From: Massilimicrobiota sp. An134
GTDB lineage: Bacteria > Bacillota_I > Bacilli_A > Erysipelotrichales > Coprobacillaceae
Length of the DNA stretch: 64,000 nt
Direction: 5' to 3'
Assembly: GCF_002160815.1 (NCBI RefSeq)
Contig: NZ_NFLH01000002.1
Span: forward strand, 1-64,000
Numbering within the stretch: the first letter of the stretch is position 1; each line of letters opens with the position of its first letter. Positions 7,346 through 32,359 of this stretch are shown piece by piece. The notes under the pieces were generated by a model. The model made no database searches. It worked only from the letters and a program-made list of their open reading frames with translations, and had not been told where the DNA came from. The position numbers and the translations under genes were made by a program.

Positions 7346-8371
7346 ATGGATTATAAAAAAGCTGGTGTAGATATTGAAGCTGGATACAAATCAGTAGAAT
7401 TAATGAAAGAACATGTCAAAGCAACGATGCGTCCTGAAGTGATTGGTGGACTTGGTGGTTTTGCTGGAGCATTTGATTTAAGTGCCATTAAAAATATGGA
7501 AGAACCTGTTTTATTATCAGGAACTGATGGTTGTGGAACAAAGGTGAAATTAGCTTTTGTGATGGATAAACATGATACAATAGGTATTGATGCTGTTGCG
7601 ATGTGTGTCAATGATATTGCATGTAGTGGTGGAGAGCCATTGTTTTTCTTGGATTATATTGCCTGTGGAAAGAACTATCCTGAAAAAATTGCAACCATTG
7701 TTAAAGGGGTGGCTCAAGGTTGTCTTCAATCTGAGTGTGCATTAGTTGGTGGTGAAACAGCAGAACATCCAGGATTAATGCCTGAAGATGATTATGATTT
7801 GGCTGGTTTTGCAGTAGGTGTTGTTGATAAAAAAGATATTATTGATGGTTCAAATATCAAAGCTGGTGATGTTTTGGTTGGTATCGCATCTAGTGGTGTG
7901 CATAGTAATGGTTTTTCACTTGTGAGAAAAGTTTTTGATATCACAAAAGAATCATTAGAAACATATTATGATGAATTAAATGGAACATTGGGTGAAACAT
8001 TATTAACACCAACAAGAATTTATGTCAAAGCTTTAAAAAATATCAAAAAAGCTGGCGTTCAAGTCAAAGGATGCTCACATATTACAGGTGGAGGATTTTA
8101 TGAAAATGTTCCAAGAATGTTACCAGATCATGCATTAGCCCTCATTCGTAAAGATAGTTATCCTATCCCACCTATTTTCAATCTGATTCAAAAGAATGGA
8201 CAAATCGAAGAACAGATGATGTATAATACGTTTAATATGGGGCTAGGAATGGTGATTGCTTTAGATCCTGCAGATGTTGACACAGCTATGAAAGCTATTG
8301 AAGCAGCAGGTGATCATTGTTATGTTGTTGGACATATTGAAGAAGGTCAAAAAGGAGTTCAGTTATGTTAA
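7346..8371 (+). CDS. purM: Phosphoribosylaminoimidazole (AIR) synthase
   Basis: Closes the imidazole ring of FGAM to give AIR, using ATP. The 341 residues match the family length. Signatures include DYKKAGVDIEAG at the start, GTDGCGTKVKLA (about 59-70) and MCVNDIACSGGEPLFFLDY (about 86-104). ALVGGETAEHPG follows in the second half. Its last codons overlap the purN start by 7 bp, so the two are translationally coupled. Confidence 0.97.
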   Translation: MDYKKAGVDIEAGYKSVELMKEHVKATMRPEVIGGLGGFAGAFDLSAIKNMEEPVLLSGTDGCGTKVKLAFVMDKHDTIGIDAVAMCVNDIACSGGEPLFFLDYIACGKNYPEKIATIVKGVAQGCLQSECALVGGETAEHPGLMPEDDYDLAGFAVGVVDKKDIIDGSNIKAGDVLVGIASSGVHSNGFSLVRKVFDITKESLETYYDELNGTLGETLLTPTRIYVKALKNIKKAGVQVKGCSHITGGGFYENVPRMLPDHALALIRKDSYPIPPIFNLIQKNGQIEEQMMYNTFNMGLGMVIALDPADVDTAMKAIEAAGDHCYVVGHIEEGQKGVQLC

Positions 8372-8958
8372 AGATTGCTGTGATGATATCTGGTGGTGGC
8401 ACAGATTTGCAATCAATTATTGATGCCTGTCAGGCTGGAAAAATCAATGGAACGATTGAACTTGTGATTTCTAATCGTCAAAAAGCTTATGGTTTACAGC
8501 GTGCTCAAAAAGCAGGGATTGAAACAGCAGTTGTCAAAAAGAATGATACATTGATTGTATCAATGTTAAAGGAAAGAAACATTGATTTGGTTGTTTTAGC
8601 TGGTTATTTAGCCATTTTAACAGATGAACTGATTGATGCCTATCCAAATCAGATTATCAATATTCATCCTTCATTGATTCCTTCATTTTGTGGGGCAGGT
8701 ATGTACGGAATGCATGTCCACGAAGCTGTTTTGAATAGAGGCGTGAAAGTCAGTGGGGCGACTGTTCATTTTGTCAGCAGTGAAATAGATGGTGGTCCTA
8801 TCATTAAGCAGGTTGCCTGTGATATTTCGGATTTAGATAAACCAGAAGATATACAGGCTAGAGTTTTGGAGATTGAACATCGCATCTTACCTGAAGTTGT
8901 CGGGTTATATTGTGATGGAAGAATAAAAGTAGAAAATGGAAGGGCAAAGGTGATTTAA
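8365..8958 (+). CDS. purN: Phosphoribosylglycinamide formyltransferase
   Basis: Transfers formyl from 10-formyl-THF (made by the fhs product of this operon) to GAR. The 197-residue protein keeps the catalytic triad in the expected spacing: N99, H101 in NIHPSL and D142 in EIDGG. The GGGTDLQ loop near residue 10 binds the substrate phosphate. It overlaps purM by 7 bp and touches purH. Confidence 0.96.
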   Translation: MLKIAVMISGGGTDLQSIIDACQAGKINGTIELVISNRQKAYGLQRAQKAGIETAVVKKNDTLIVSMLKERNIDLVVLAGYLAILTDELIDAYPNQIINIHPSLIPSFCGAGMYGMHVHEAVLNRGVKVSGATVHFVSSEIDGGPIIKQVACDISDLDKPEDIQARVLEIEHRILPEVVGLYCDGRIKVENGRAKVI

Positions 8959-10482
8959 GTGAAAAGAGCTTTGATTTCTGTAACAAATAAAGATGGTGTT
9001 GTTGATTTTGCATCAGGTTTAGTGAAACTCGGATTTGAAATTGTTTCTACTGGTGGAACAATGAAAGTTTTAGAAGACAATGGTGTTCACTGTATTGCGA
9101 TTGATGATGTCACTGGTTTTCCTGAAATGTTGGATGGGAGAGTGAAAACTTTACATCCTAAAGTTCATGGTGGACTTTTATTTAAAAGAGATAATCCAGA
9201 ACACGTGAAAACAGTTCAAGAACATCATATTCAACCTATTGATTTGGTTTGTGTGAATTTATATGAATTTGAAAAAGCTTTAAGAGCTGGAAAACCAATG
9301 GAAGATATGATTGAAAATATTGATATTGGTGGACCTTCTATGATTAGAAGTGCTGCTAAAAACTTCAAAGATGTTTTGATTGTCACTGATCCAAGTGATT
9401 ATGCAAAAGTCTTAGAAGCTATTGAAAACAATCAGACTGATTATGATTTCAGATTACGTCTTGCTTATAAAGCTTTTAGTACAACAGGGGCTTATGACGC
9501 CATGATTTCACGTTATTTTGCAGATGTATGTCATGATGAATTCCCTGATACTTTAAACATTTCATTAAAGAAAGTGGAACATTTACGTTATGGAGAAAAC
9601 TCTCAACAGGCAGCTAATAAATATGAAGACAGCTATGTTCAAAAATCATTATTAGATTATGAACAATTACATGGAAAAGAAATTTCTTTCAATAATGTCA
9701 ACGATTTATATGGAGCTGTGGCTTTAGTGAGAGAATTTGGTGATCAGATTGTTACAGCGGCTATTAAACATTCAACACCTTGTGGGGTTGCGATTGGTGA
9801 AACTGGTTATGATTCTTATATGAAAGCTTATGAAGCAGATCCACAATCTATCTTTGGTGGAATTGTAGCCGTGAACTATAAAATTGATAAACAGACAGCT
9901 GAACAGATGCATAAGATTTTCTTAGAAATCGTTGCAGCACCTGATTTTGACGCGGATGCTTTGGAAATCTTAAAGAAAAAGAAAAACTTACGTATCTTAA
10001 AATTAAAGAATTTAGATGCTAGAGATGCCAAATATGATATTAAATATCTTGAAGGTAAAGTGCTTGTCCAAGAGTTAAATACAAAGATGATTGATGAAAT
10101 GAAAGTTGTCACTGAAGCAAAGCCTACACCAGAACAGCTAACAGATATGGAATTTGGTATGAAAGTTGTCAAATATGTTAAATCAAATGCAATCTGTATT
10201 GTGAAAAATGGTGTGACTTTGGCTATTGGTGGAGGACAGACTTCACGTGTTTGGGCTTTGGAAAATGCTATTAGAAACAATCCTGATAAGAATTTCGAAG
10301 GTTCAGTTTTAGCTAGTGATGCTTTCTTCCCATTTAATGACTGTGTTGAAGTTGCTGCCAAGGCAGGAGTTGGCGCTATTATTCAACCAGGTGGAAGTAT
10401 CAGAGATCAGGATTCTATTGATTTGTGTAATGAAAAGAATATTCCAATGGTCTTTAGTGGATATAGACATTTTAGACATTAA
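8959..10482 (+). CDS. purH: Bifunctional AICAR formyltransferase / IMP cyclohydrolase
   Basis: Performs the last two steps to IMP, with 10-formyl-THF as donor. The N-terminal cyclohydrolase domain starts RALISVTNKDG and carries LDGRVKTLHPKVHGG (about 54-68). The C-terminal transformylase has the catalytic Lys-His pair in AIKHSTPCGVA near residue 270. I accept the GTG start at 8959, immediately after the purN stop, because AAGGTGAT at 8946-8953 is placed for it. The 507 residues fit the family. Its substrate AICAR (ZMP) is the riboswitch ligand of this operon. Confidence 0.97.
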   Translation: MKRALISVTNKDGVVDFASGLVKLGFEIVSTGGTMKVLEDNGVHCIAIDDVTGFPEMLDGRVKTLHPKVHGGLLFKRDNPEHVKTVQEHHIQPIDLVCVNLYEFEKALRAGKPMEDMIENIDIGGPSMIRSAAKNFKDVLIVTDPSDYAKVLEAIENNQTDYDFRLRLAYKAFSTTGAYDAMISRYFADVCHDEFPDTLNISLKKVEHLRYGENSQQAANKYEDSYVQKSLLDYEQLHGKEISFNNVNDLYGAVALVREFGDQIVTAAIKHSTPCGVAIGETGYDSYMKAYEADPQSIFGGIVAVNYKIDKQTAEQMHKIFLEIVAAPDFDADALEILKKKKNLRILKLKNLDARDAKYDIKYLEGKVLVQELNTKMIDEMKVVTEAKPTPEQLTDMEFGMKVVKYVKSNAICIVKNGVTLAIGGGQTSRVWALENAIRNNPDKNFEGSVLASDAFFPFNDCVEVAAKAGVGAIIQPGGSIRDQDSIDLCNEKNIPMVFSGYRHFRH

Positions 10483-22436: not shown

Positions 22437-22496
22437 TTGTAAAAATTGCTGTTTGTTTAAACATGAACTCATTCTTAAAAGATAATATATAATGAA

Positions 22497-22545
22497 TGAT
22501 ATAATATTTTACAATTGTGTTTAATTTGTTGAAATAATATTTTAA
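22497..22545 (+). promoter_or_regulatory. anmK promoter with candidate MurR operator
   Basis: An extended -10 TGATATAAT (hexamer 22500-22505) is followed by the near-palindrome TTGAAATAATATTTTAA at 22529-22545. Seven of its eight base pairs are symmetric. The same 17-mer recurs upstream of the AmiE-like gene. Its position just after the expected start point fits a repressor roadblock. Assignment to MurR is inference from the shared site and the adjacent regulator gene. Confidence 0.55.
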
Positions 22546-22576
22546 TAGGTGTATGATTCTTTTGAGGTGAAGAAAG

Positions 22577-23716
22577 ATGTACGCGGTTGGAATCATGTCA
22601 GGAACATCAATGGATGGTATTGACACAGTGCTGGTTGATATTCATGGTTATGGAAAGGAAACAAAATTGAAAGTCATTGGCTACCATGAGTATCCTATGC
22701 CTATAGATATGAAAGCAAAAATTATGAAAGCCTGTGATGAAAAAGATTCTCATGTTGATGAAATTTGTAGCTTAAATTTTGAACTAGGATATCTGTTTGT
22801 TGAAGCTGTCAAAGTTTTACTTCATAAATATCATATATTATCAAAAGATATTGATTTTATTGCAACACATGGACAAACAATTTATCATATTCCTTTTCAA
22901 AAAGGTCAACTGTTGCCATCTACTTTACAAATTGGGGAACCTGCTGTTTTGGCTTATGAATTGAATACAACAGTGATTTCTAATTTTAGAGTGATGGATA
23001 TGGCAGCTGGCGGACAGGGAGCACCGTTGGTACCATATAGTGAATTTATATTATATAGTGAAGAACATAAAAATATCGCATTACAAAATATTGGTGGCAT
23101 TGGAAATGTGACTTTGTTAGTTGGACAGGATCTTGATCAAGTTCAGGCATTTGATACTGGACCAGGAAATATGATGATTAATGAAGCATGTCGTATCCTT
23201 TATCATTTAGAGTATGACGATTGTGGACATATTAGTGCTAAAGGAACGGTTATCAATGCTTTGTTAGATGAATTGATGCATCATTCATATATGAAAAAAC
23301 AACCACCTAAATCAACAGGAAGAGAAGATTTTGGAGAAAAATATGTTCATTATCTTGTTGATAAATATAAAAAAGAAAAGCCACAAGATATTATAACAAC
23401 TTTAACCTATTTTACTGCAAAAAGTATAGGTTATCATTATCAGACATATATATTGCCATATTATCCATTGCATAAAGTCATTGTTGGCGGTGGTGGCAGT
23501 CATAATCAGACACTTTTACAAATGCTTCAAAAAGAATTATATGATATCCCTGTTTATACACAGGATGATATCGGTTATTCAAGTGATGCAAAAGAAGCCA
23601 TTGCTTTTGTCATTATGGGGAATGAAACATTACACCATCACTTTTCTAATGTTAAAAGTGCGACTGGTGCATCTGATTATGTTATATTAGGAAATATGAC
23701 ATTACCACCACGATAA
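22577..23716 (+). CDS. anmK: 1,6-anhydro-N-acetylmuramic acid kinase
   Basis: Phosphorylates anhydroMurNAc (and opens the ring) to MurNAc-6-phosphate, the substrate of MurQ. The 379-residue protein starts GIMSGTSMDGIDTVLVDI, the family's ATP-binding signature. It has IATHGQTIYHIP (about 94-105) and the FDTGPGNMM motif near residue 195 with the catalytic aspartate. Length matches the family. It opens the recycling cluster, 52 bp before murR. GAGGTGAAGAAAG serves as ribosome site. Confidence 0.95.
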   Translation: MYAVGIMSGTSMDGIDTVLVDIHGYGKETKLKVIGYHEYPMPIDMKAKIMKACDEKDSHVDEICSLNFELGYLFVEAVKVLLHKYHILSKDIDFIATHGQTIYHIPFQKGQLLPSTLQIGEPAVLAYELNTTVISNFRVMDMAAGGQGAPLVPYSEFILYSEEHKNIALQNIGGIGNVTLLVGQDLDQVQAFDTGPGNMMINEACRILYHLEYDDCGHISAKGTVINALLDELMHHSYMKKQPPKSTGREDFGEKYVHYLVDKYKKEKPQDIITTLTYFTAKSIGYHYQTYILPYYPLHKVIVGGGGSHNQTLLQMLQKELYDIPVYTQDDIGYSSDAKEAIAFVIMGNETLHHHFSNVKSATGASDYVILGNMTLPPR

Positions 23717-23740
23717 TTCCTAGTATTTTTATAGAAGCAT

Positions 23741-23749
23741 TGATATAAT
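23741..23749 (+). promoter_or_regulatory. Extended -10 promoter of murR
   Basis: TGATATAAT with hexamer at 23744-23749, 20 bp before the murR start. None of the TTGAAAT-N3-ATTTTAA sites is present here, so murR may be expressed from this promoter without self-repression, or by read-through from anmK. Confidence 0.5.
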
Positions 23750-23768
23750 GATAATAGGTGGTGAATTT

Positions 23769-24608
23769 ATGAATTGTCTAGTACAGATTAAAGAAGCACA
23801 AAAAAGTTATACATCAACAGAAAAAATCATTGCTCAATATATTTTAGAACATACTCATGAGATATTAAATGATTCAGCCCAGCAACTAGGTGAAAAAAGT
23901 CAAACGTCAGCTGCTGCTGTTATTCGTTTTTCTAAAAAATTGGGGTATAAAGGATTTAGTGATTTAAAAATCAGTTTAGCTAGATCTTCACAAAATGAAG
24001 AGGAGGATATTGATACTGTTTTAGAGGAGGCAGATGATTTAACAACGCTTATTCATAAAGCTTGTCAATTAAATGTATCTACAGTTCAAAAAACATATCA
24101 AATGATTAATGAAGGACAATTACAAAAAGCAATTGAATATATGATTAACGCAAAAACAATTTATTTATTCGGGGTAGGAAGTTCTGCCATTGTGGCTTAT
24201 GATTTTTCTCAAAAGTTATTGAGAATTGGTAAAAAAGCTATCTATAATACTGATATTCATGTGCAGATGACCTTTGCAGAAAGCATGACAAAAGACGATG
24301 TAGCTATTTTCATCAGTTACTCTGGAATGACTGCTGGTTTAACTGGTATGGCTAAAAAATTGAAAAAAGATGGTATACCAAGTCTGTCTATTACACAAAA
24401 TTCTAGAAATACTGTCGCAAAAAATACAACGATTCAATTGTTTGTTCCTTTGGAAGAAAAAGAAATGAGAATAGGAGCTATCTCTTCAAGAACAGCATCT
24501 TTGGTTGTCACAGATCTTTTATATTATGGTGTTTATAAATACGACTTAGAAAATAACAGAGCTAAACTTTATGAAACAAAGAATCTGGTTTCTCAATTAT
24601 TGAAATAA
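23769..24608 (+). CDS. murR: MurR/RpiR-family transcriptional regulator
   Basis: The N-terminal 75 residues are an RpiR-type helix-turn-helix (TSTEKIIAQYILEH, then TSAAAVIRFSKKLGYKGF). The remainder is a SIS sugar-phosphate-binding domain (FGVGSSAIVAYDFSQKLLRIG near residue 135; ISYSGMT near 185). MurR proteins of E. coli and Bacillus bind MurNAc-6-phosphate and control MurNAc use, which fits the neighbours exactly. The frame extends upstream, but AGGTGGTGA supports the ATG at 23769 (280 aa). It is followed by a terminator. Confidence 0.9.
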   Translation: MNCLVQIKEAQKSYTSTEKIIAQYILEHTHEILNDSAQQLGEKSQTSAAAVIRFSKKLGYKGFSDLKISLARSSQNEEEDIDTVLEEADDLTTLIHKACQLNVSTVQKTYQMINEGQLQKAIEYMINAKTIYLFGVGSSAIVAYDFSQKLLRIGKKAIYNTDIHVQMTFAESMTKDDVAIFISYSGMTAGLTGMAKKLKKDGIPSLSITQNSRNTVAKNTTIQLFVPLEEKEMRIGAISSRTASLVVTDLLYYGVYKYDLENNRAKLYETKNLVSQLLK

Positions 24609-24638
24609 TAGAGATTTGATAGATATTCTATAGAAATG

Positions 24639-24669
24639 GACCTCTTTAGATTTAAAGAAGGTCTTTTTT
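24639..24669 (+). terminator. Terminator after murR
   Basis: GACCTCTTTA pairs with TAAAGAAGGTC (one bulged base) at 24639-24663, followed by a run of T. It separates murR from the downstream operon. Confidence 0.75.
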
Positions 24670-24694
24670 ATATCTTAAAAAGAATATAATTTTG

Positions 24695-24760
24695 TTGAAA
24701 TCTGATTTTATTGACAAAATAATTCAAAAATTAGATAATAAAATTGAAATAATATTTTAA
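24695..24760 (+). promoter_or_regulatory. Promoter of the MurNAc-recycling operon with two candidate MurR operators
   Basis: TTGACA at 24711-24716 and GATAAT at 24734-24739 are 17 bp apart. One operator-like site, TTGAAATCTGATTTTAT at 24695-24711, ends at the -35. A second, TTGAAATAATATTTTAA at 24744-24760, covers the expected start point. Two sites flanking one promoter suggest tight repression. Confidence 0.6.
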
Positions 24761-24775
24761 TAAGGAGAGTTATAT

Positions 24776-25804
24776 ATGAACACAAAGATTGAATATTTTT
24801 TAGAAGAATCAGTGAATCAAAACGTTTTTCCAGGCTGTTGTGTTGCTATTATTCATAATCAGATAACAGATTATTATTGTGTGGGGAATAAATCTATTTA
24901 TCCATGCCAAGAAGAGAATCAAATAGATACACTTTATGATTTAGCGAGTCTTAGTAAAGTTGTTGGCACAACACCAGCAATATTAAGACTCATTCAAAAA
25001 GGATTATTATCTTATGATACACCTATTTATACAATAATTCCTGAATTTTTTAATAGAGATATAACGATCTTTCATTTGTTGACACATACATCTGGATTAC
25101 CAGCGGATTTATCTTGGGGTTTAGATGTCACTAAGAATCAAATGGTTCAAGATATAAGTAATGTAAGTTCTAGCTGTATCCCTGGACAAAAAGTTGTTTA
25201 TTCTGATTTGGGATATATTCTACTAGGACATATTATTGAGTCTATAACAAAAAAGAGTTTGGATAAAGTAGTAAAAGAGGAAGTCTTATTGCCATTGGAT
25301 ATGTATCAAACAGAATATTGTCCCAAAGAGCACATTCAATGTGCACCAACAGAAATCAGTCCACATTTTCATCAATTATTAAGAGGACAAGTTCATGATA
25401 GAAAGGCTTATATAATGAATGGTGTTGCTGGACATGCAGGACTATTTTCAAATGTTTATGATTTAGAGATGTATGCAAAAATGATTTTAAATTATGGACA
25501 ATATAAAAATCAAACATTTTTAGAAGAACAATATATTCATGATATGTTTACGAATTTTTCTCTGGAACATCAAATTCCTAGGGGAATAGGTTTTTTGACT
25601 TATACTCCTGATAGTCTTTTTTCATCATTAAATTCTATAAAAACAATAGCTCATACTGGTTTTACAGGTACATCAATATTAATTGATCTGCAGAACCAAA
25701 TTGCAATCATTGTTTTATCTAATAGAGTTCATCCGACACGAGAAAATACAAAGATATTGAATTGGCGTAGAGAGTTTCATAATTTTGTGATGGAAAATAT
25801 ATGA
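24776..25804 (+). CDS. Serine beta-lactamase-family hydrolase, probably AmiE/YbbE-like muropeptide amidase
   Basis: A 342-residue class C beta-lactamase-type fold. The SxxK nucleophile motif is in DLASLSKVVG (about residue 60), the second motif is YSDLGY (about 142), and the third is HTGFTGT in place of KTG (about 295). There is no signal peptide, so it should act in the cytoplasm. In B. subtilis the mur cluster carries AmiE (YbbE), a member of this family that removes peptide from MurNAc. The same place in this cluster argues for that job, but a general esterase role cannot be excluded. Confidence 0.8.
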   Translation: MNTKIEYFLEESVNQNVFPGCCVAIIHNQITDYYCVGNKSIYPCQEENQIDTLYDLASLSKVVGTTPAILRLIQKGLLSYDTPIYTIIPEFFNRDITIFHLLTHTSGLPADLSWGLDVTKNQMVQDISNVSSSCIPGQKVVYSDLGYILLGHIIESITKKSLDKVVKEEVLLPLDMYQTEYCPKEHIQCAPTEISPHFHQLLRGQVHDRKAYIMNGVAGHAGLFSNVYDLEMYAKMILNYGQYKNQTFLEEQYIHDMFTNFSLEHQIPRGIGFLTYTPDSLFSSLNSIKTIAHTGFTGTSILIDLQNQIAIIVLSNRVHPTRENTKILNWRREFHNFVMENI

Positions 25805-25838
25805 TGTGAAATTATATTACAAATTTTATAAAATAATA

Positions 25839-25866
25839 TTGAAATTTAATTTTAAATTGTTATAAT
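25839..25866 (+). promoter_or_regulatory. Promoter of the first EIIC gene with candidate MurR operator
   Basis: TTGAAATTTAATTTTAA at 25839-25855 is a third version of the site (7 of 8 pairs symmetric) and includes a TTGAAA -35. TATAAT follows at 25861-25866 after 16 bp and is preceded by TGT, giving an extended -10. Repressor binding would cover the -35. Confidence 0.55.
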
Positions 25867-25921
25867 AATAATGTAAGCACTTCCGTTAATTGGGGAGAAG
25901 AAAAGAGAGGAGAGTATAACT

Positions 25922-27217
25922 ATGGAAAAACTTACAAATTTTATTGAAGAAAAAGTTGCACCTCCATTAATTAAGTTTTCAAACTTAAGATATGTGCAAA
26001 TTATGCAGAGAACATTTATTAGTTTTACTGCACTATTAATTATAGGATCAATATTCTTATTATTAGCATCATTGCCTTTTGATCCATGGCAAAATCTTAT
26101 CGGTGATTTTTCAGCAAAATTTGCTGCTGCATCAGGAGTTGGAACTGGTTTTATTGCTTTGTTTGTTGTTGTTGCAGCTGCATATGCGACAATTGAATAT
26201 TATAATAAGAAAAAGGGAGAGGGATTAGATTTTGTTGCTCCAATAATCTTAGCTGTATCATCTTTCTTTATTCTTATACCAGCACAAACTGTTTCTACAA
26301 TAGTTGAAGGATCAGATACTGCGGGTACATTTACAGGTGTTCCTACTGACTTTTTGGGAGCAAAAGGTGTGTTTGTAGGTTTGATTGTTGGGATTGTAAC
26401 TATTGAAATTTATCGTTTCTTCATTAATAAGAAATGGACAATTAAAATGCCAGAAGGTGTTCCACCAATGGTAGCAAGTGCATTTATTGCCTTAATTCCA
26501 AGTACATTTGCGATTATATTCTGGTGGTTAATTGCAGTTGTTTTATCAATTGATTTACCAAATATTATTATGGGAATCTTTACACCATTAGTTAGTGCTT
26601 CTGATACACCAGCAACTGTATTTGTAACATCATTCTTGAATCGTGCTTTATGGGCAGTCGGTATTCATGGTGGAAATGTAGTTGGTTCTATTGCAAATCC
26701 AATTTGGACACAAATGACTGCTGCAAACCAAATTGCAATGGAAGCAGGAAAGAATTTACCATATGTGTTTACAAGTGTATTCTATGATAACTATATTTGG
26801 ACTGGACTAGCACCACTTGCAACTGTAATGATTTTCTCTAAATCAAAACGTATCAAAGCTTTAGGAGTTTTAGCTTTACCTGCTGCATTATTCAATATTG
26901 GGGAACCATTAATCTTTGGTTTACCAATTATGATGAATCCATTAATGATGATTCCATTTGTATTAGGATATATGGTTGTAGCTGTAGTTGCTGTTGTTCT
27001 CACAATGACTGGAATTATTCCGGTACCAGTTTTATCTGCACCTTGGATTTTACCAGCACCTATCAAAACATTTATGGCAACATCAGGTAGTATACCAGCA
27101 GTTATATTTGTTCTTATTACTTGGGTTATTTTAGGGCTTGTATTTTATCCATTTGTAAAAGCTATGGAAAAAAATGATTTAAAAGAAGAAAAAGCGGCTT
27201 TAGAAGAAGGAAAATAA
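25922..27217 (+). CDS. PTS permease EIIC, lactose/cellobiose type, 431 aa (first copy)
   Basis: A membrane carrier of the phosphotransferase system with about ten helices. The family signatures are GIHGGNVVGSIANPIWTQM (about 240-258) and FNIGEPLIFGLP (about 320-331). There is no fused IIB or IIA domain and neither is encoded nearby, so it must borrow phosphoryl carriers from elsewhere or use another mechanism. Placement before mupG and murQ indicates a MurNAc-containing sugar such as MurNAc-GlcNAc as cargo. MurP, the usual MurNAc transporter, is a glucose-family EIIBC, so this is a different permease type in that role. Confidence 0.88.
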   Translation: MEKLTNFIEEKVAPPLIKFSNLRYVQIMQRTFISFTALLIIGSIFLLLASLPFDPWQNLIGDFSAKFAAASGVGTGFIALFVVVAAAYATIEYYNKKKGEGLDFVAPIILAVSSFFILIPAQTVSTIVEGSDTAGTFTGVPTDFLGAKGVFVGLIVGIVTIEIYRFFINKKWTIKMPEGVPPMVASAFIALIPSTFAIIFWWLIAVVLSIDLPNIIMGIFTPLVSASDTPATVFVTSFLNRALWAVGIHGGNVVGSIANPIWTQMTAANQIAMEAGKNLPYVFTSVFYDNYIWTGLAPLATVMIFSKSKRIKALGVLALPAALFNIGEPLIFGLPIMMNPLMMIPFVLGYMVVAVVAVVLTMTGIIPVPVLSAPWILPAPIKTFMATSGSIPAVIFVLITWVILGLVFYPFVKAMEKNDLKEEKAALEEGK

Positions 27218-27239
27218 AATTAGAAAGTGGAGGTGTTCT

Positions 27240-28274
27240 ATGTTAGGAATTTCAGTATATTTTCAAGATTTGAATCTAAAATATCTTGAAGAGGCTAAAA
27301 AATGTGGCGCGAAATATGTATTTACATCTTTGCATATACCAGAAGAAGACTATTCTGACTTAGATCAAAAATTACCTTTATTTTTAGAGAAATGTCATTC
27401 TTTAGGATTGCAGGTAGTCCCTGATGTTTCACCTGTTACTTTTGAAAAATTAAACATTCCTCATCAAGATTATAAACAGTTAAAAAGAATGGGATTTAAA
27501 GCTTTAAGATTAGATTATGGTTTTGATGATTATGAAGTTATTAAGGAATTACAGAAGGATTTTTATTTAATGCTGAATGCAAGTGTAGTTAATGATCAAT
27601 ATCTAAAAGGTGCACAAGAAGCAGGAGTGGATTTTGATAAATTAGCATTAACACATAATTTTTATCCTCATAGTGAAACAGGATTATCTTTGGAATATTT
27701 TCAAAAGAAAAATAAAACTTTTCAAAAATATCATTTAACTGTTCAAGCTTTTGTATGTGGAGATGTATTAAAAAGATTTCCACTTTATGAAGGATTGCCA
27801 ACAGTGGAAAAACATCGTACAATGAATCCATATGTTGCAGCTGTTGAGTTAATACATGATTGTGGTATTAAGGATATACTTATTGGTGATAGTGAGGCTT
27901 CTATTTCTACTCTTAAAAATATTCAGGCTTATATGGATAAAAATATTATGCATATTCCTTGTCATTTAGAAAAAGAGTATGAATATCTTTATGACCAGGA
28001 GATTCAAGTCAGAAAAGATCTTGCTGAAAAGATTGTAAGATTAACATTGCCTAGAACACCAGATATTCCAATATTCCATAATACTATTCGTCAACGTGGA
28101 TATATAGTAATGGAAAATAAACTGGCAGGTCGTTATAGTGGAGAAGTTCATATCATAAAAGAAAGTTTACCTTTTGAAGCAAGAACAAATGTTATTGGAT
28201 TTATACATCCTGAATATATTGATATTATTGATTATATTGATGCACAAACAACGATTGTATTAGAGAGAATATAG
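27240..28274 (+). CDS. mupG: MupG-family 6-phospho-N-acetylmuramidase (first copy), 344 aa
   Basis: Belongs to the DUF871/MupG family: a TIM barrel (about 1-235) plus a C-terminal cyclophilin-like domain. S. aureus MupG splits MurNAc6P-GlcNAc into MurNAc6P and GlcNAc in the cytoplasm. Family motifs seen are GISVYFQD at the N terminus, THNFYPHSETGLSLEYF (about 138-154), GLPTVEKHR and IGDSEAS (about 216-222). It sits between the EIIC gene (22 bp upstream) and murQ (12 bp downstream). The operon therefore encodes import, cleavage and lactyl-ether removal in order. Confidence 0.9.
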   Translation: MLGISVYFQDLNLKYLEEAKKCGAKYVFTSLHIPEEDYSDLDQKLPLFLEKCHSLGLQVVPDVSPVTFEKLNIPHQDYKQLKRMGFKALRLDYGFDDYEVIKELQKDFYLMLNASVVNDQYLKGAQEAGVDFDKLALTHNFYPHSETGLSLEYFQKKNKTFQKYHLTVQAFVCGDVLKRFPLYEGLPTVEKHRTMNPYVAAVELIHDCGIKDILIGDSEASISTLKNIQAYMDKNIMHIPCHLEKEYEYLYDQEIQVRKDLAEKIVRLTLPRTPDIPIFHNTIRQRGYIVMENKLAGRYSGEVHIIKESLPFEARTNVIGFIHPEYIDIIDYIDAQTTIVLERI

Positions 28275-28286
28275 GGAGAAGTCAAG

Positions 28287-29189
28287 ATGAATAAAGTAAA
28301 TATTTCTCATTTAGTGACTGAAAGTAGAAATTCTAAAACAATGAATTTAGACGATATGAGTATCCATGAATTTTTAACAGTTATGAATGAAGAAGATGCT
28401 CTTGTTCCACAACGTATTCATGATGTTTTGCCTCAAATCGAAAAGGCTGTGGAAAAAATTGTTGAGGCTTTAAATCAAGGTGGAAGACTCTTTTATGTAG
28501 GCAGTGGAACAAGTGGACGTTTAGGAATATTAGATGCTGTGGAATGTCCTCCAACATTTAGTACAACAAATGAAGTGAATGGTATTATTGCAGGTGGTCC
28601 GTCAGCTTTCGTTAAAGCTAAAGAAGGAGCGGAAGATCATGAAGATGATGGTCAAAGAGAAATCATGGAGGCTGGAATCTGTGATAAAGATGTTGTAGTA
28701 GGTATTGCTGCCAGTGGAAGAACGCCACATACTATAGGTGCTTTGAAACAGGCCAATAAAATAGGTGCATATACAATCAGCATTGCTTGTAATCCAGATA
28801 GTGAGATTGGAAAAGTTGCAAAGTTAGCTATTGATATGAATTTAGGTCCAGAAGTCATTACTGGTTCCACACGTCTTAAAGCAGGAACAGCACAAAAGCT
28901 TGTTTTAAACATGTTATCAACAGCTTCCATGGTAGGAATAGGAAAAACATATCAGAATTTAATGGTTGATTTAAAACCTTCTAATGAAAAACTGGTTGAA
29001 AGAAGTAAAAGAATTATTATGGAAGCAACAGGATGTAGCTATGAAGTAGCTCAAGAAACATTTGAAGAATGTCATCGACATGTCAAAGTTGCGATTATTA
29101 AAATATTATTAAATTGTACTGTTGAAGAAGCCAAGTCAAGATTAGAAAGCAGTCAAGGCTTTGTAAAGAAAGCAATTCAAAATCAATAA
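28287..29189 (+). CDS. murQ: N-acetylmuramic acid 6-phosphate etherase
   Basis: Removes the D-lactyl group from MurNAc-6-phosphate to give GlcNAc-6-phosphate. The 300-residue SIS-domain protein has LVTESRN near the start and GGRLFYVGSGTSGRLGILDA (about 66-85), with the catalytic glutamate in the following VECPPTF. GSTRLKAGTAQK follows near residue 197. It receives MurNAc6P from MupG and AnmK of this cluster. A strong hairpin lies immediately after it. Confidence 0.96.
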   Translation: MNKVNISHLVTESRNSKTMNLDDMSIHEFLTVMNEEDALVPQRIHDVLPQIEKAVEKIVEALNQGGRLFYVGSGTSGRLGILDAVECPPTFSTTNEVNGIIAGGPSAFVKAKEGAEDHEDDGQREIMEAGICDKDVVVGIAASGRTPHTIGALKQANKIGAYTISIACNPDSEIGKVAKLAIDMNLGPEVITGSTRLKAGTAQKLVLNMLSTASMVGIGKTYQNLMVDLKPSNEKLVERSKRIIMEATGCSYEVAQETFEECHRHVKVAIIKILLNCTVEEAKSRLESSQGFVKKAIQNQ

Positions 29190-29216
29190 CAGACTGATTT
29201 CAGTCTGTTATTTTTC
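29186..29216 (+). terminator. Internal terminator or attenuator between murQ and the second EIIC gene
   Basis: ATAACAGACTGA and TCAGTCTGTTAT form a perfect 12-bp stem with a very tight loop, then TTTTTCT. The ribosome site of the next gene (AGGAG at 29218-29222) begins just after. Partial read-through would lower expression of the second module compared with the first. Confidence 0.8.
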
Positions 29217-29229
29217 TAGGAGAATAAAA

Positions 29230-30366
29230 ATGAGTGAACAAATCAATGATTATATTAATAAAATAATAAACTTAGATTTTATTCAGGCACTTAAAATGAC
29301 ATTTGTACATATGACATTATGTTTTGTTGTTTTAGGAATTATTGTCTTTTTTCAATGGTTTTCTATCTTTTATCCATATATAGAATGTATATATTTTTTG
29401 ATGATACAAATGATGTATGCATTTCAATATATTCAAAGAAAAAAACTGAATCCTGTTTTCATGTTGTTCTCTGTGCTTTTGAGTATGCTTTTTATTTATT
29501 ATGGAAAACAATACTCTATTTTGACTTTGACTCTGCCAGTTTTATTTGTGCATATGATATATTTGGCCATGATTCATCGTATGTCTCTCTATTTAGAAAA
29601 GAGAATCCATTTTTTTATTGAACCGATTGAAGCCTATTTCAAACAGCTTGTACCAGTTTTTATCGCAGCTTTATTGATTATGGGATTGATTTATTGTCAA
29701 AATACCTATATAGGTCTTTTCATTAGCTGTGTTCAATTATGTTTATCTTTTTTAACGTCTATAATAGGGATTTTACTTATAGTTGTATTGACATGTGGAT
29801 TCTGGTTAAGCGGGATTCATGGTGTGGCTATGGTAGGAATCTTGGCTAGACCTTTTTGGACACAAATGCTGATGGTAAATTTAATATGTTATATCAATCA
29901 TCAGGCTATTCCTTATATTGGAGTTGAAGGTTTTTATCAATGGTTTGTATGGATTGGAGGTTCAGGTGCTACATTAGGATTAGTTCTCTTATGTCAATTT
30001 TTTGCGAAAAGTCACTATCTTAGACAAATGGGTCATCAGACTCTTCAATCAGGACTTATCAATATTAATGAACCTGTGATTTTTGGTGCACCCATTGTTC
30101 AAAATCGCTATTTAAGAATTCCTTTTCTTGCCGCTCCAATCGTTATGAGTCTTTGTACTTATATAATGATGGCTTATCATTATATCAATATACCTGTTAT
30201 GCTTGCACCATGGGTATTACCATCTGTTTTTGGAGGCTTCTGGGTAACGGGTGGTCAAATCTTTTCAATTCTTTATATTATAGGAATGATTATTGTTTCA
30301 CTGATCATTTATTTACCATTTTTCATTTGTTATGATCGTCAATTAGTTAAGGAGGAAAACGCATGA
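29230..30366 (+). CDS. PTS permease EIIC, second divergent copy, 378 aa
   Basis: A shorter relative of the 25922 permease. It keeps SGIHGVAMVGILARPFWTQM (about 193-212) and the INEPVIFGAPIV segment (about 277-288) of lactose/cellobiose-type EIIC proteins, but its N-terminal half is poorly conserved and about 50 residues shorter. No IIA or IIB is present. The last 4 bp overlap the second mupG gene (ATGA-type), so the two are translated as a pair. It may carry a different muropeptide sugar, or be decaying. Confidence 0.8.
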   Translation: MSEQINDYINKIINLDFIQALKMTFVHMTLCFVVLGIIVFFQWFSIFYPYIECIYFLMIQMMYAFQYIQRKKLNPVFMLFSVLLSMLFIYYGKQYSILTLTLPVLFVHMIYLAMIHRMSLYLEKRIHFFIEPIEAYFKQLVPVFIAALLIMGLIYCQNTYIGLFISCVQLCLSFLTSIIGILLIVVLTCGFWLSGIHGVAMVGILARPFWTQMLMVNLICYINHQAIPYIGVEGFYQWFVWIGGSGATLGLVLLCQFFAKSHYLRQMGHQTLQSGLININEPVIFGAPIVQNRYLRIPFLAAPIVMSLCTYIMMAYHYINIPVMLAPWVLPSVFGGFWVTGGQIFSILYIIGMIIVSLIIYLPFFICYDRQLVKEENA

Positions 30367-31457
30367 GAAGATTAGGTATCTCTATTTATCCAGAAAAATC
30401 ATCATCAGAAAAAATCAAAGCATATATTGATCAGATGTCAAAATTAGGTTTTTCACGTATTTTTTCTTGTCTTTTATCCGTTAATAAAAGTAAAGAGGAA
30501 ATTATTCAAGATTTTAAAGATATCAATCTTTATGCTCAATCAAAAGGATTTGAAATCATTGTAGACGTATCACCAAGAGTTTTTCAGGACTTAGATATTA
30601 GTTATCAGGATTTACACTTTTTTAAGGAGATAGGAGCAGATGGTTTACGTTTAGATGCTGGTTTTTCAGGAAGTGAGGAAGCCTTGATGACTTATAATCC
30701 TTATGGATTGAAGATTGAAATCAATATGAGTAATGATGTTCATACACTTGATACAATTATGGATTATCAGCCTAATAAGTATTGTTTATTGGGATGTCAT
30801 AATTTCTATCCCCATAATTATAGTGGATTATCATTAGATTATTTTATGAAGTGTACAGAGCGTTTTATCAGCTATGGCATTCCTACAGCTGCTTTTGTCA
30901 CAAGTCAAAATGAAAATACATTTGGGTCTTGGCCAGTCACAAATGGTCTGCCAACCTTAGAAATGCATAGACATCTTTCATTAATAACACAAATCAAACA
31001 TATGCTGGCTCTCAATGTCATTGATGATATTATCATTTCTAATTGTTATCCTTCTTTAGAAGAATTAAAATCATTGGAAAATTTAGACTTAAATCTCGTC
31101 ACTTTTGATGTTGATCCTATAGAGAATTTACCAGCAATGGAAAGAAAAATTTTATTTGAAGAACTCCATTTTCAACGTGGAGATGTAAATAGCTACATGA
31201 TACGTTCTACACAAAGTCGTGTTAAATATAAAGCACATCATTTTGAATTGATCAATACTCCACAAATGATTCATCGTGGTGATGTTATTATTGAAAGCAG
31301 TCAATATGGACATTATGCTGGAGAACTTCAGATAGCTTTAAAAGATATGCCAAACAGTGGAATGTCCAATGTAGTTGGTCATATTAAAGAAGAGGAAATA
31401 TTTATTCTTGATGATATCAAACCATGGCAAAAATTTAGATTGAAAGAAGTGAAATAA
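30363..31457 (+). CDS. MupG-family protein, second copy, 364 aa
   Basis: A paralogue of the 27240 gene with the same two-domain layout. CHNFYPHNYSGLSLDYF (about 140-156) and GLPTLEMHR are conserved. The IGDSEAS motif of copy one is ISNCYPS here (about 220-226), so a conserved aspartate is replaced and the substrate or activity may differ. The C-terminal domain (HYAGELQIALKDMP) is intact. It overlaps the preceding EIIC gene by 4 bp and is followed 2 bp later by the sugar kinase gene. Confidence 0.82.
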   Translation: MRRLGISIYPEKSSSEKIKAYIDQMSKLGFSRIFSCLLSVNKSKEEIIQDFKDINLYAQSKGFEIIVDVSPRVFQDLDISYQDLHFFKEIGADGLRLDAGFSGSEEALMTYNPYGLKIEINMSNDVHTLDTIMDYQPNKYCLLGCHNFYPHNYSGLSLDYFMKCTERFISYGIPTAAFVTSQNENTFGSWPVTNGLPTLEMHRHLSLITQIKHMLALNVIDDIIISNCYPSLEELKSLENLDLNLVTFDVDPIENLPAMERKILFEELHFQRGDVNSYMIRSTQSRVKYKAHHFELINTPQMIHRGDVIIESSQYGHYAGELQIALKDMPNSGMSNVVGHIKEEEIFILDDIKPWQKFRLKEVK

Positions 31458-31459
31458 AC

Positions 31460-32359
31460 ATGAATTATATTTGTATAGATGGTGGTGGAACAAAAACAAA
31501 ATTTGTGCTTTATGATGAAAATGGACAAGTTATAAAAGAAAAGTCTGCTGGATCCATTCATATTTTGACACAGTCAAAACAAGAAAGTGTATGCATTCTT
31601 AAAGAGAATGTTACGTTATTGGATCCTTCTAAACAATCTTTGATTGTTGCAGGATTGGCTGGATATGGAAATCAGGAAGATTTAAGAAAACAAATAGAAG
31701 ATATTTGCCAAGAAGCTTTCGAGGGCTATACGTATCTTTTATATAATGATGTTCAAATAGCTTTAGCAGGAGCATTAGCTAATCAGGATGGTATTGTTGT
31801 GATTGCAGGAACAGGCAGCATCGCTTATTCATGCTTGAATGGACAAACAAAAAGATGTGGTGGCTGGGGTTATCAGTTAGGTGATGAAGGTAGTGCTTAT
31901 TGGATGGGAAAAGAGCTTATGAAAATATATTGTCAACAAGTTGACGGAAGATTAGAAAAGACAAAATTGTATGATAAAGTTAAAGAAAGTTTATTATTAG
32001 AAAATGACTATGATATCATTTCATATCGTCATCATCTTCAAAACGAAAGAAAAGATATTGCACTTTTAGCAAAAATCAATTATGAATTGGCTTTAGAAAA
32101 TGATCTGTATGCTTTGCAGATTTATAAAAATGCCGCAAATTATCTTGGTCAACTGATAAAAGTTCTAGCTCGAGATTTTCATCAACCTATACCAGTATCT
32201 TATATAGGAGGCGTTTTTCAGGCAGGTGAATATATTTTAAAGCCATTAAAAGAAACATTACAGACGACATCATGTTATTTACAGTCACCGCTTTATCCAC
32301 CAGAATATGGAGGATATTTATTAGGGTGTATGTATACTCAAAAGATACTCAAAAAATAA
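31460..32359 (+). CDS. BadF/BadG-family amino-sugar kinase (GlcNAc/MurNAc kinase)
   Basis: A 299-residue ASKHA-fold kinase. It has YICIDGGGTKTKFVLYD at the N terminus (phosphate 1), NDVQIALAGA with the catalytic aspartate (about 97-106), IAGTGSIAYS (about 114-123) and GGWGYQLGDEGSAYWMG (about 134-150). The family includes mammalian-type GlcNAc kinase and MurK of Clostridium acetobutylicum, which phosphorylates MurNAc and GlcNAc. MupG releases free GlcNAc, so a kinase here completes the pathway to GlcNAc6P. The exact substrate is inference. Confidence 0.85.
   Translation: MNYICIDGGGTKTKFVLYDENGQVIKEKSAGSIHILTQSKQESVCILKENVTLLDPSKQSLIVAGLAGYGNQEDLRKQIEDICQEAFEGYTYLLYNDVQIALAGALANQDGIVVIAGTGSIAYSCLNGQTKRCGGWGYQLGDEGSAYWMGKELMKIYCQQVDGRLEKTKLYDKVKESLLLENDYDIISYRHHLQNERKDIALLAKINYELALENDLYALQIYKNAANYLGQLIKVLARDFHQPIPVSYIGGVFQAGEYILKPLKETLQTTSCYLQSPLYPPEYGGYLLGCMYTQKILKK

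Follow-up and report, generated by a model that had tools for sequence, protein, structure and literature searches.

The mur gene cluster and its putative regulator

The window, i.e. the whole 64-kb stretch of DNA analyzed here, derives from a gut bacterium related to Massilimicrobiota and contains a gene cluster with a role in the recycling of the cell wall sugar MurNAc. The genes are found in the order anmK, a murR-like regulator gene, a serine beta-lactamase-family gene (likened to AmiE in the first-pass annotation), a PTS EIIC gene, mupG, murQ, a second EIIC gene, a second mupG and a NagK-like kinase gene (Table 1). As in MurR-type regulons, the regulator gene is thereby situated within a MurNAc catabolic cluster, with anmK, murQ, two mupG, PTS EIIC and NagK-like genes.

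Two Pfam domains, both above cut-off, assign the regulator to the RpiR family, namely HTH_6 in the N-terminal part (PF01418, E=1.3e-19) and SIS in the C-terminal part (PF01380, E=3.8e-20), and its SIS motifs, e.g. ISYSG and D-x-H-x-Q, align with those of E. coli MurR. Against the E. coli-type MurR equivalog model NF012026 it reached 120.6 bits, with a cut-off of 408, and it is therefore called MurR-like here: its place is that of MurR and its role probably the same, while the model does not establish it as an ortholog of the E. coli protein. Among named relatives, the closest one found is Massilimicrobiota timonensis, whose regulator is 83% identical; the organism-named locus collection yielded two Massilimicrobiota loci. 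RpiR-type helix-turn-helix (HTH_6) matches numbered 16 in the genome as a whole.

With a gap of approximately 50 bases between anmK and murR, the latter may share the anmK promoter. A comparison of this junction in the window and in the relatives L052 and L068 also pointed to a possible private murR promoter with no operator, whose conserved extended -10 element, just upstream of murR, may provide a constant supply of the regulator. Downstream of murR a strict terminator scan found none, and the hairpin listed in Table 1 is a probable weak one.

Table 1. Features of the mur locus, in window coordinates.
Feature	Position	Strand	Evidence and remarks
Partner copy ATGATATAATATTTTAC (putative operator)	22496..22512	+	33 bp upstream of 22529
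Strong copy TTGAAATAATATTTTAA (putative operator), anmK-murR promoter	22529..22545	+	TTGAAA (22529-22534) = -35 box
-10 box TATGAT, anmK promoter	22552..22557	+	17-bp spacer from TTGAAA
anmK, anhydro-MurNAc kinase	22577..23716	+	PF03702 E=1.4e-93; NF007142 565 bits, cut-off 435 (above)
Possible private murR promoter, extended -10 TGATATAAT	23741..23749	+	ATTGATATAAT kept in two relatives
MurR-like RpiR-family regulator (HTH_6 + SIS)	23769..24608	+	ATG at 23769, preceded by AGGTGGTGA
Probable weak terminator hairpin after murR, then T run	24637..24670	+	Fold z = -1.33, not significant
Further reported copy TTGAAATCTGATTTTAT (doubtful)	24695..24711	+	49 bp from 24744, a spacing unseen in relatives
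Degenerate partner copy TTGACAAAATAATTCAA (putative operator)	24711..24727	+	33 bp upstream of 24744; TTGACA = -35 box
-10 box GATAAT, beta-lactamase-family gene promoter	24734..24739	+	TTGACA-17-GATAAT
Strong copy TTGAAATAATATTTTAA (putative operator)	24744..24760	+	Just downstream of -10 GATAAT
Serine beta-lactamase-family gene	24776..25804	+	PF00144 E=1.6e-45
Partner copy GTGAAATTATATTACAA (putative operator)	25806..25822	+	33 bp upstream of 25839
Strong copy TTGAAATTTAATTTTAA (putative operator), PTS operon promoter	25839..25855	+	TTGAAA = -35 box
-10 box TATAAT, PTS operon promoter	25861..25866	+	TTGAAA-16-TATAAT
PTS EIIC, lactose/cellobiose family	25922..27217	+	PF02378; TIGR00410 308 bits, cut-off 236 (above)
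First MupG, 6-phospho-N-acetylmuramidase family	27240..28274	+	PF19200, PF05913
murQ, MurNAc-6-phosphate etherase	28287..29189	+	TIGR00274 387 bits, cut-off 302 (above)
Second EIIC, shorter	29230..30366	+	PF02378
Second MupG	30363..31457	+	PF19200, PF05913
BadF-family N-acetylglucosamine kinase-like protein	31460..32359	+	PF01869; NF046058 133 bits (below cut-off)

A near-palindromic site in the window and the genome

The first-pass annotation had described four copies of a near-palindrome, TTGAAAT-N3-ATTTTA(A/T), at 22529, 24695, 24744 and 25839, and proposed that they define a candidate MurR regulon. All four sequences were recovered at these positions, and the identity over 19 bases between the copies at 22529 and 24744 was confirmed. 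Searching the complete genome (2,558,858 bases) with the exact pattern yielded five matches, four of which are the reported sites, and none for the reversed pattern; within the window, the same four were the only matches without mismatch. The fifth (C12:90609) lies past the end of a hypothetical gene, on its 3' side, where no promoter role was seen. The genome count is partly circular, since the pattern was derived from these very sites, and relatives were consequently used as the fair test. When a weight matrix built from relatives only was applied to all positions of the window, the 24744 and 22529 copies shared rank 1, followed by 25839 (rank 3), 25806 (rank 4) and 24695 (rank 5), with 22496 at rank 10. 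The strand of a match carries little information, as the site is nearly symmetrical.

The caveat of an AT-rich background, raised together with the original proposal, holds for loose matching: with up to two mismatches, 23 sites were found in the window where 18.9 were expected, i.e. chance level, and a single-site scan of the genome at two mismatches, which returned some 600 places, was of no use. It does not extend to the exact matches, with five against none for the reversed pattern, and the genome-wide scan that had been suggested as a check revealed no random scatter. The motif is thus real and not an artefact of AT-richness. A perfect palindrome elsewhere (G000:C32:445), as well as its relative in G004, falls within an integrase-like gene, and these were not taken as regulon members.

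Pairs of sites 33 bp apart

At all three mur promoters, a weaker second copy, absent from the first-pass annotation, was found exactly 33 bp upstream of the strong copy. Allowing at most three mismatches in the 24 specified positions of the resulting 48-bp pair, the whole genome contained three matches, namely the three mur promoters, with none for the control. The summed score in the window was 25.5 at offset -33, compared to a score of -36 at the next best offset, and none of 20,000 dinucleotide shuffles reached 25.5. Among the relatives, which were chosen by protein, spacings between 12 and 80 bp were scored, and 33 bp came out far ahead with 14 partner placements above threshold, compared to three at 34 bp and none at the other leading spacings. 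The 34-bp variant replaces the 33-bp one in L066 and L072 (EIIC promoter). A 34-bp pair elsewhere in the genome under study (C29:16261, three mismatches) was a single weak match and was taken as chance.

The strict form of the pair, with at most one mismatch, was present in six out of 395 genomes of the class, in mur loci in all six, with no control matches. A looser form gave 45 matches in 295 genomes of the order, at least 26 of them at mur loci, compared to eight for the control. Two operators about three helical turns apart, a further mark of a MurR-type regulon, are hence represented by the 33-bp pairs at all three promoters and in relatives, and a pair of palindromes at 33 bp is a better description of the site than single, scattered copies. 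Two individual copies call for caution. The core of the 24711 partner departs from the motif at three positions, and this copy might be no more than a -35 box; in L072 the register is the same, with TTGACA again preceding the operator by 33 bp. The copy at 24695 does not fit the 33-bp register and is doubtful, and may be either an extra site or a chance occurrence.

Conservation and co-occurrence with the regulator

Loci near regulator homologues were collected by protein similarity only. In these relatives the consensus reads TTGAAAT-N3-ATTTYAA, and it precedes PTS genes, murQ, anmK or the beta-lactamase-family gene. TTGAAAT-N3-ATTTCAA, in which the two halves match completely, occurs in several relatives, so that this is a true palindrome. 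A further check put forward with the original proposal concerned orthologous mur genes, and conservation of the motif in front of them was borne out: at anmK for three further genomes of the genus, and across two families of the order at the promoters of murQ, PTS or beta-lactamase-family genes. As in a MurR-type regulon, a common operator-like site is accordingly found at the promoters of the cluster and conserved in relatives.

We also gathered mur loci via MurQ, whatever their regulator. Of 12 further genomes that encode a close MurR homologue (the window itself not counted), 10 had the motif at the mur locus, whereas the 13 mur loci from 11 genomes with murQ but lacking such a homologue had no motif within one mismatch; for 10/12 versus 0/11, Fisher's test gives p = 7e-5, an optimistic value since the genomes are related and not independent. 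In G019 and G045, which make up the rest of the 12, 33-bp pairs are present but weaker. Best 33-bp pair scores ranged from 10 to 41 in loci with the regulator, and none exceeded -6 in loci without it. The distant homologues of G021 and G029 (33–35% identity), where pairs with a slightly different arm, ATTACA, occur, were excluded from the co-occurrence count. In G054 the regulator and the mur-locus sites are on different contigs, so that the link between motif and regulator is not one of mere adjacency. The motif, in short, is linked to the presence of a close MurR homologue and not to that of the mur genes as such.

Promoter geometry and proposed mechanism

Promoter boxes were assigned as consensus matches. 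The anmK site had been placed after the start point, which proved wrong, as it coincides with the -35 box and spacer of a likely promoter, TTGAAA-17-TATGAT, whose geometry is kept in L052, L068 and L080. For the first EIIC gene, a copy over the -35 had been proposed, and the TTGAAA at 25839 does serve as the -35 box in the assigned promoter; the arrangement is similar to that of the EIIC promoter in L072, with its 34-bp pair.

Taken together, the genome scan, the conservation and the co-occurrence with a close MurR homologue support the reading of the cluster as a MurR regulon, and the MurR-like repressor very probably binds at the paired palindrome. We propose with high confidence that a tetramer of this RpiR protein clamps the paired operators and represses the three mur transcription units, with probable release by MurNAc-6-phosphate. 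TTGAAAT-N3-ATTTYAA would thus be the operator of the protein encoded between the sites. A distance of 33 bp corresponds to approximately three helical turns and would present both palindromes on the same face of the DNA, such that one tetramer, as a dimer of dimers, could hold both, with one palindrome per dimer. At anmK-murR and the PTS operon, the -35 box and the spacer are part of the strong copy and the partner lies further upstream; at the beta-lactamase-family gene the strong copy is found just past the -10, with the degenerate partner over the -35. Occupancy is predicted to make the -35 box inaccessible at anmK-murR and the PTS operon and to cover the start region at the beta-lactamase-family gene, so that RNA polymerase would be blocked at each of them. 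The ligand that then releases the repressor would, on the model of E. coli MurR, be the MurNAc-6-phosphate produced by the PTS.

Alternative explanations

The motif might instead be promoter sequence and nothing else, i.e. a common TTGAAA -35 box in an AT-rich spacer, a view that draws on the -35 position of TTGAAA at anmK and EIIC1 and on the chance-level frequency of the motif at two mismatches. This would leave several observations unaccounted for, namely that the right arm ATTTYAA is conserved though it is no promoter element, that the 24744 copy is outside the -35 position, that the partners 33 bp upstream are palindromic, that the reversed controls gave no matches and that mur loci devoid of the regulator are also devoid of the motif, and we regard it as extremely improbable. 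It is likewise improbable, if not to the same degree, that the sites belong to another regulator, be it a different RpiR protein or CcpA acting via cre, with murR among them by chance. Any of the proteins behind the 16 HTH_6 matches could bind, and similar pairs at non-mur genes in G016, G114 and G186 indicate that related palindromes are used by other regulators, but the motif goes with the close MurR homologue, even in trans as in G054. As for CcpA, the cre consensus WTGNAANCGNWNNCW had no match with up to one mismatch at any of the three promoters and was at chance level in the window; moreover, the motif lacks the CG found at the centre of cre and is a palindrome of odd length.

A different question is whether MurR binds the sites but activates some of the promoters, as NanR does in Streptococcus pneumoniae, an RpiR activator that binds upstream of the polymerase site (PMC12713135). 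The partners at anmK and EIIC1 are upstream of the -35 box, as such a role would have it, but the strong copies lie over the -35 and spacer or just past the -10, positions that fit steric repression, and the MurR proteins of Bacillus subtilis and E. coli are both repressors (PMC6148471, PMC5061867). Activation thus appears quite unlikely, and we favor repression by a bridging MurR-like tetramer.

Comparison with known systems

The system resembles the E. coli murQ-murR divergon in that an RpiR repressor is linked to MurNAc-6-phosphate etherase and transporter genes, and in having two operators about three turns apart over a promoter; for E. coli MurR, bridging of two sites with a 17-bp gap and a 47-bp span has been proposed (PMC12713135). 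In the E. coli murQ-murR intergenic region, we found the best direct repeat to be ATGATTCC, with a spacing of 32 bp. The operator sequences are, however, unrelated, as no TTGAAAT palindrome was seen in that region, and there are three promoters here in place of one divergent region, with murR following anmK. B. subtilis MurR (YbbH) is likewise encoded in a Gram-positive mur cluster, murQRP-amiE-nagZ-ybbC, which includes amiE, to which the beta-lactamase-family gene of the window had been likened, and deletion of murR increases PmurQ activity, identifying MurR as a negative regulator (PMC6148471). That cluster is a single operon, though, and MurP and NagZ are here replaced by MupG, AnmK and a lactose-family EIIC. 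No description of the B. subtilis MurR operator was found in the literature searched. MurR regulons have also been inferred by comparative genomics in Firmicutes, in RegPrecise work on Lactobacillales (PMC3616900), with Lactobacillales being another order than that studied here. Finally, the palindrome of S. pneumoniae NanR, another RpiR protein, is similar (consensus TCTGAAACTACTTTCAAA), and NanR shows a dimer-tetramer arrangement (PMC12713135). It differs from the system in the window by activating sialic acid genes and by an 18-bp even palindrome with no adjacent full second site.

The 32-bp repeat of E. coli, a single comparison, suggests that the operator spacing is older than the operator sequence. 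A fixed pair spacing of 32–34 bp might then be ancestral and conserved among MurR-type RpiR tetramers as far apart as those of E. coli and Erysipelotrichales, with sequences diverged beyond recognition, a possibility that we raise tentatively and, on balance, do not favor.

Significance

The regulator-operator system described here is well supported and of a kind already known, and the operator may have been described earlier, our literature search having been limited in coverage. What it adds is a specific sequence and geometry for the putative operator of a MurR-like protein in a Gram-positive bacterium; in B. subtilis, the nature of MurR regulation was still called unknown in 2018 (PMC6148471). 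It also places anmK, and hence 1,6-anhydro-MurNAc, under what would be the same switch as the rest of the cluster. Lastly, the 33-bp spacing offers a direct way to test the model in which RpiR proteins bridge two sites as a dimer of dimers.

Promoter regions and gene content of the mur loci

The extended -10 box directly upstream of murR, TGATATAAT, is conserved in the window and in the related loci L052 and L068, and in none of the three is it accompanied by the palindromic operator predicted for MurR, hinting at a basal murR expression that would be free of regulation. Further downstream, approximately TGTAAGCNNTTCC is conserved in the window and L072, lying in both after the PTS promoter and ahead of the start codon of EIIC1, the first PTS EIIC gene.

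The window's mur operon (25922-32359) contains two EIIC and two mupG genes, while no PTS EIIA or EIIB gene was recognised within it; a PTS EIIB-like gene is found directly 5' of EIIC in other genomes (e.g. in L073). In genome G004 (L068), the place of EIIC1 is taken by a different EIIC (35% identity), at whose promoter no MurR-type site was found, together with another RpiR gene.

Some homologues are split over two frames, namely murR and the second mupG in L068, and anmK in L052. Two such breaks within L068 alone, in a genome assembled as a single contig, suggest sequencing errors rather than pseudogenes.

Palindrome pairs outside the mur genes

Three pairs of TGAAAT-N3-ATTTCA-like palindromes with 33-bp spacing were found at non-mur genes in G016, and form a candidate regulon distinct from the mur one but of shared architecture. 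Pairs so spaced also occur beside or near other RpiR genes in G186 and G114, with a glycosidase-like and a PTS-like gene as neighbors, suggesting that RpiR proteins in general may use the 33-bp spacing.

Positions of promoter elements, replacement genes and palindrome pairs (L068 in murR-forward orientation)
Feature	Locus (genome)	Position	Strand
Extended -10 box	window	23741-23749	
TGTAAGCNNTTCC (approximately)	window	25871-25884	
Another RpiR gene	L068 (G004)	7988-8764	opposite
Different EIIC	L068 (G004)	9007-10308	
33-bp pair	L187 (G016)	6662	
33-bp pair	L188 (G016)	430	
33-bp pair	L189 (G016)	6767	
33-bp pair	L199 (G186)	1779	
33-bp pair	L192 (G114)	6257
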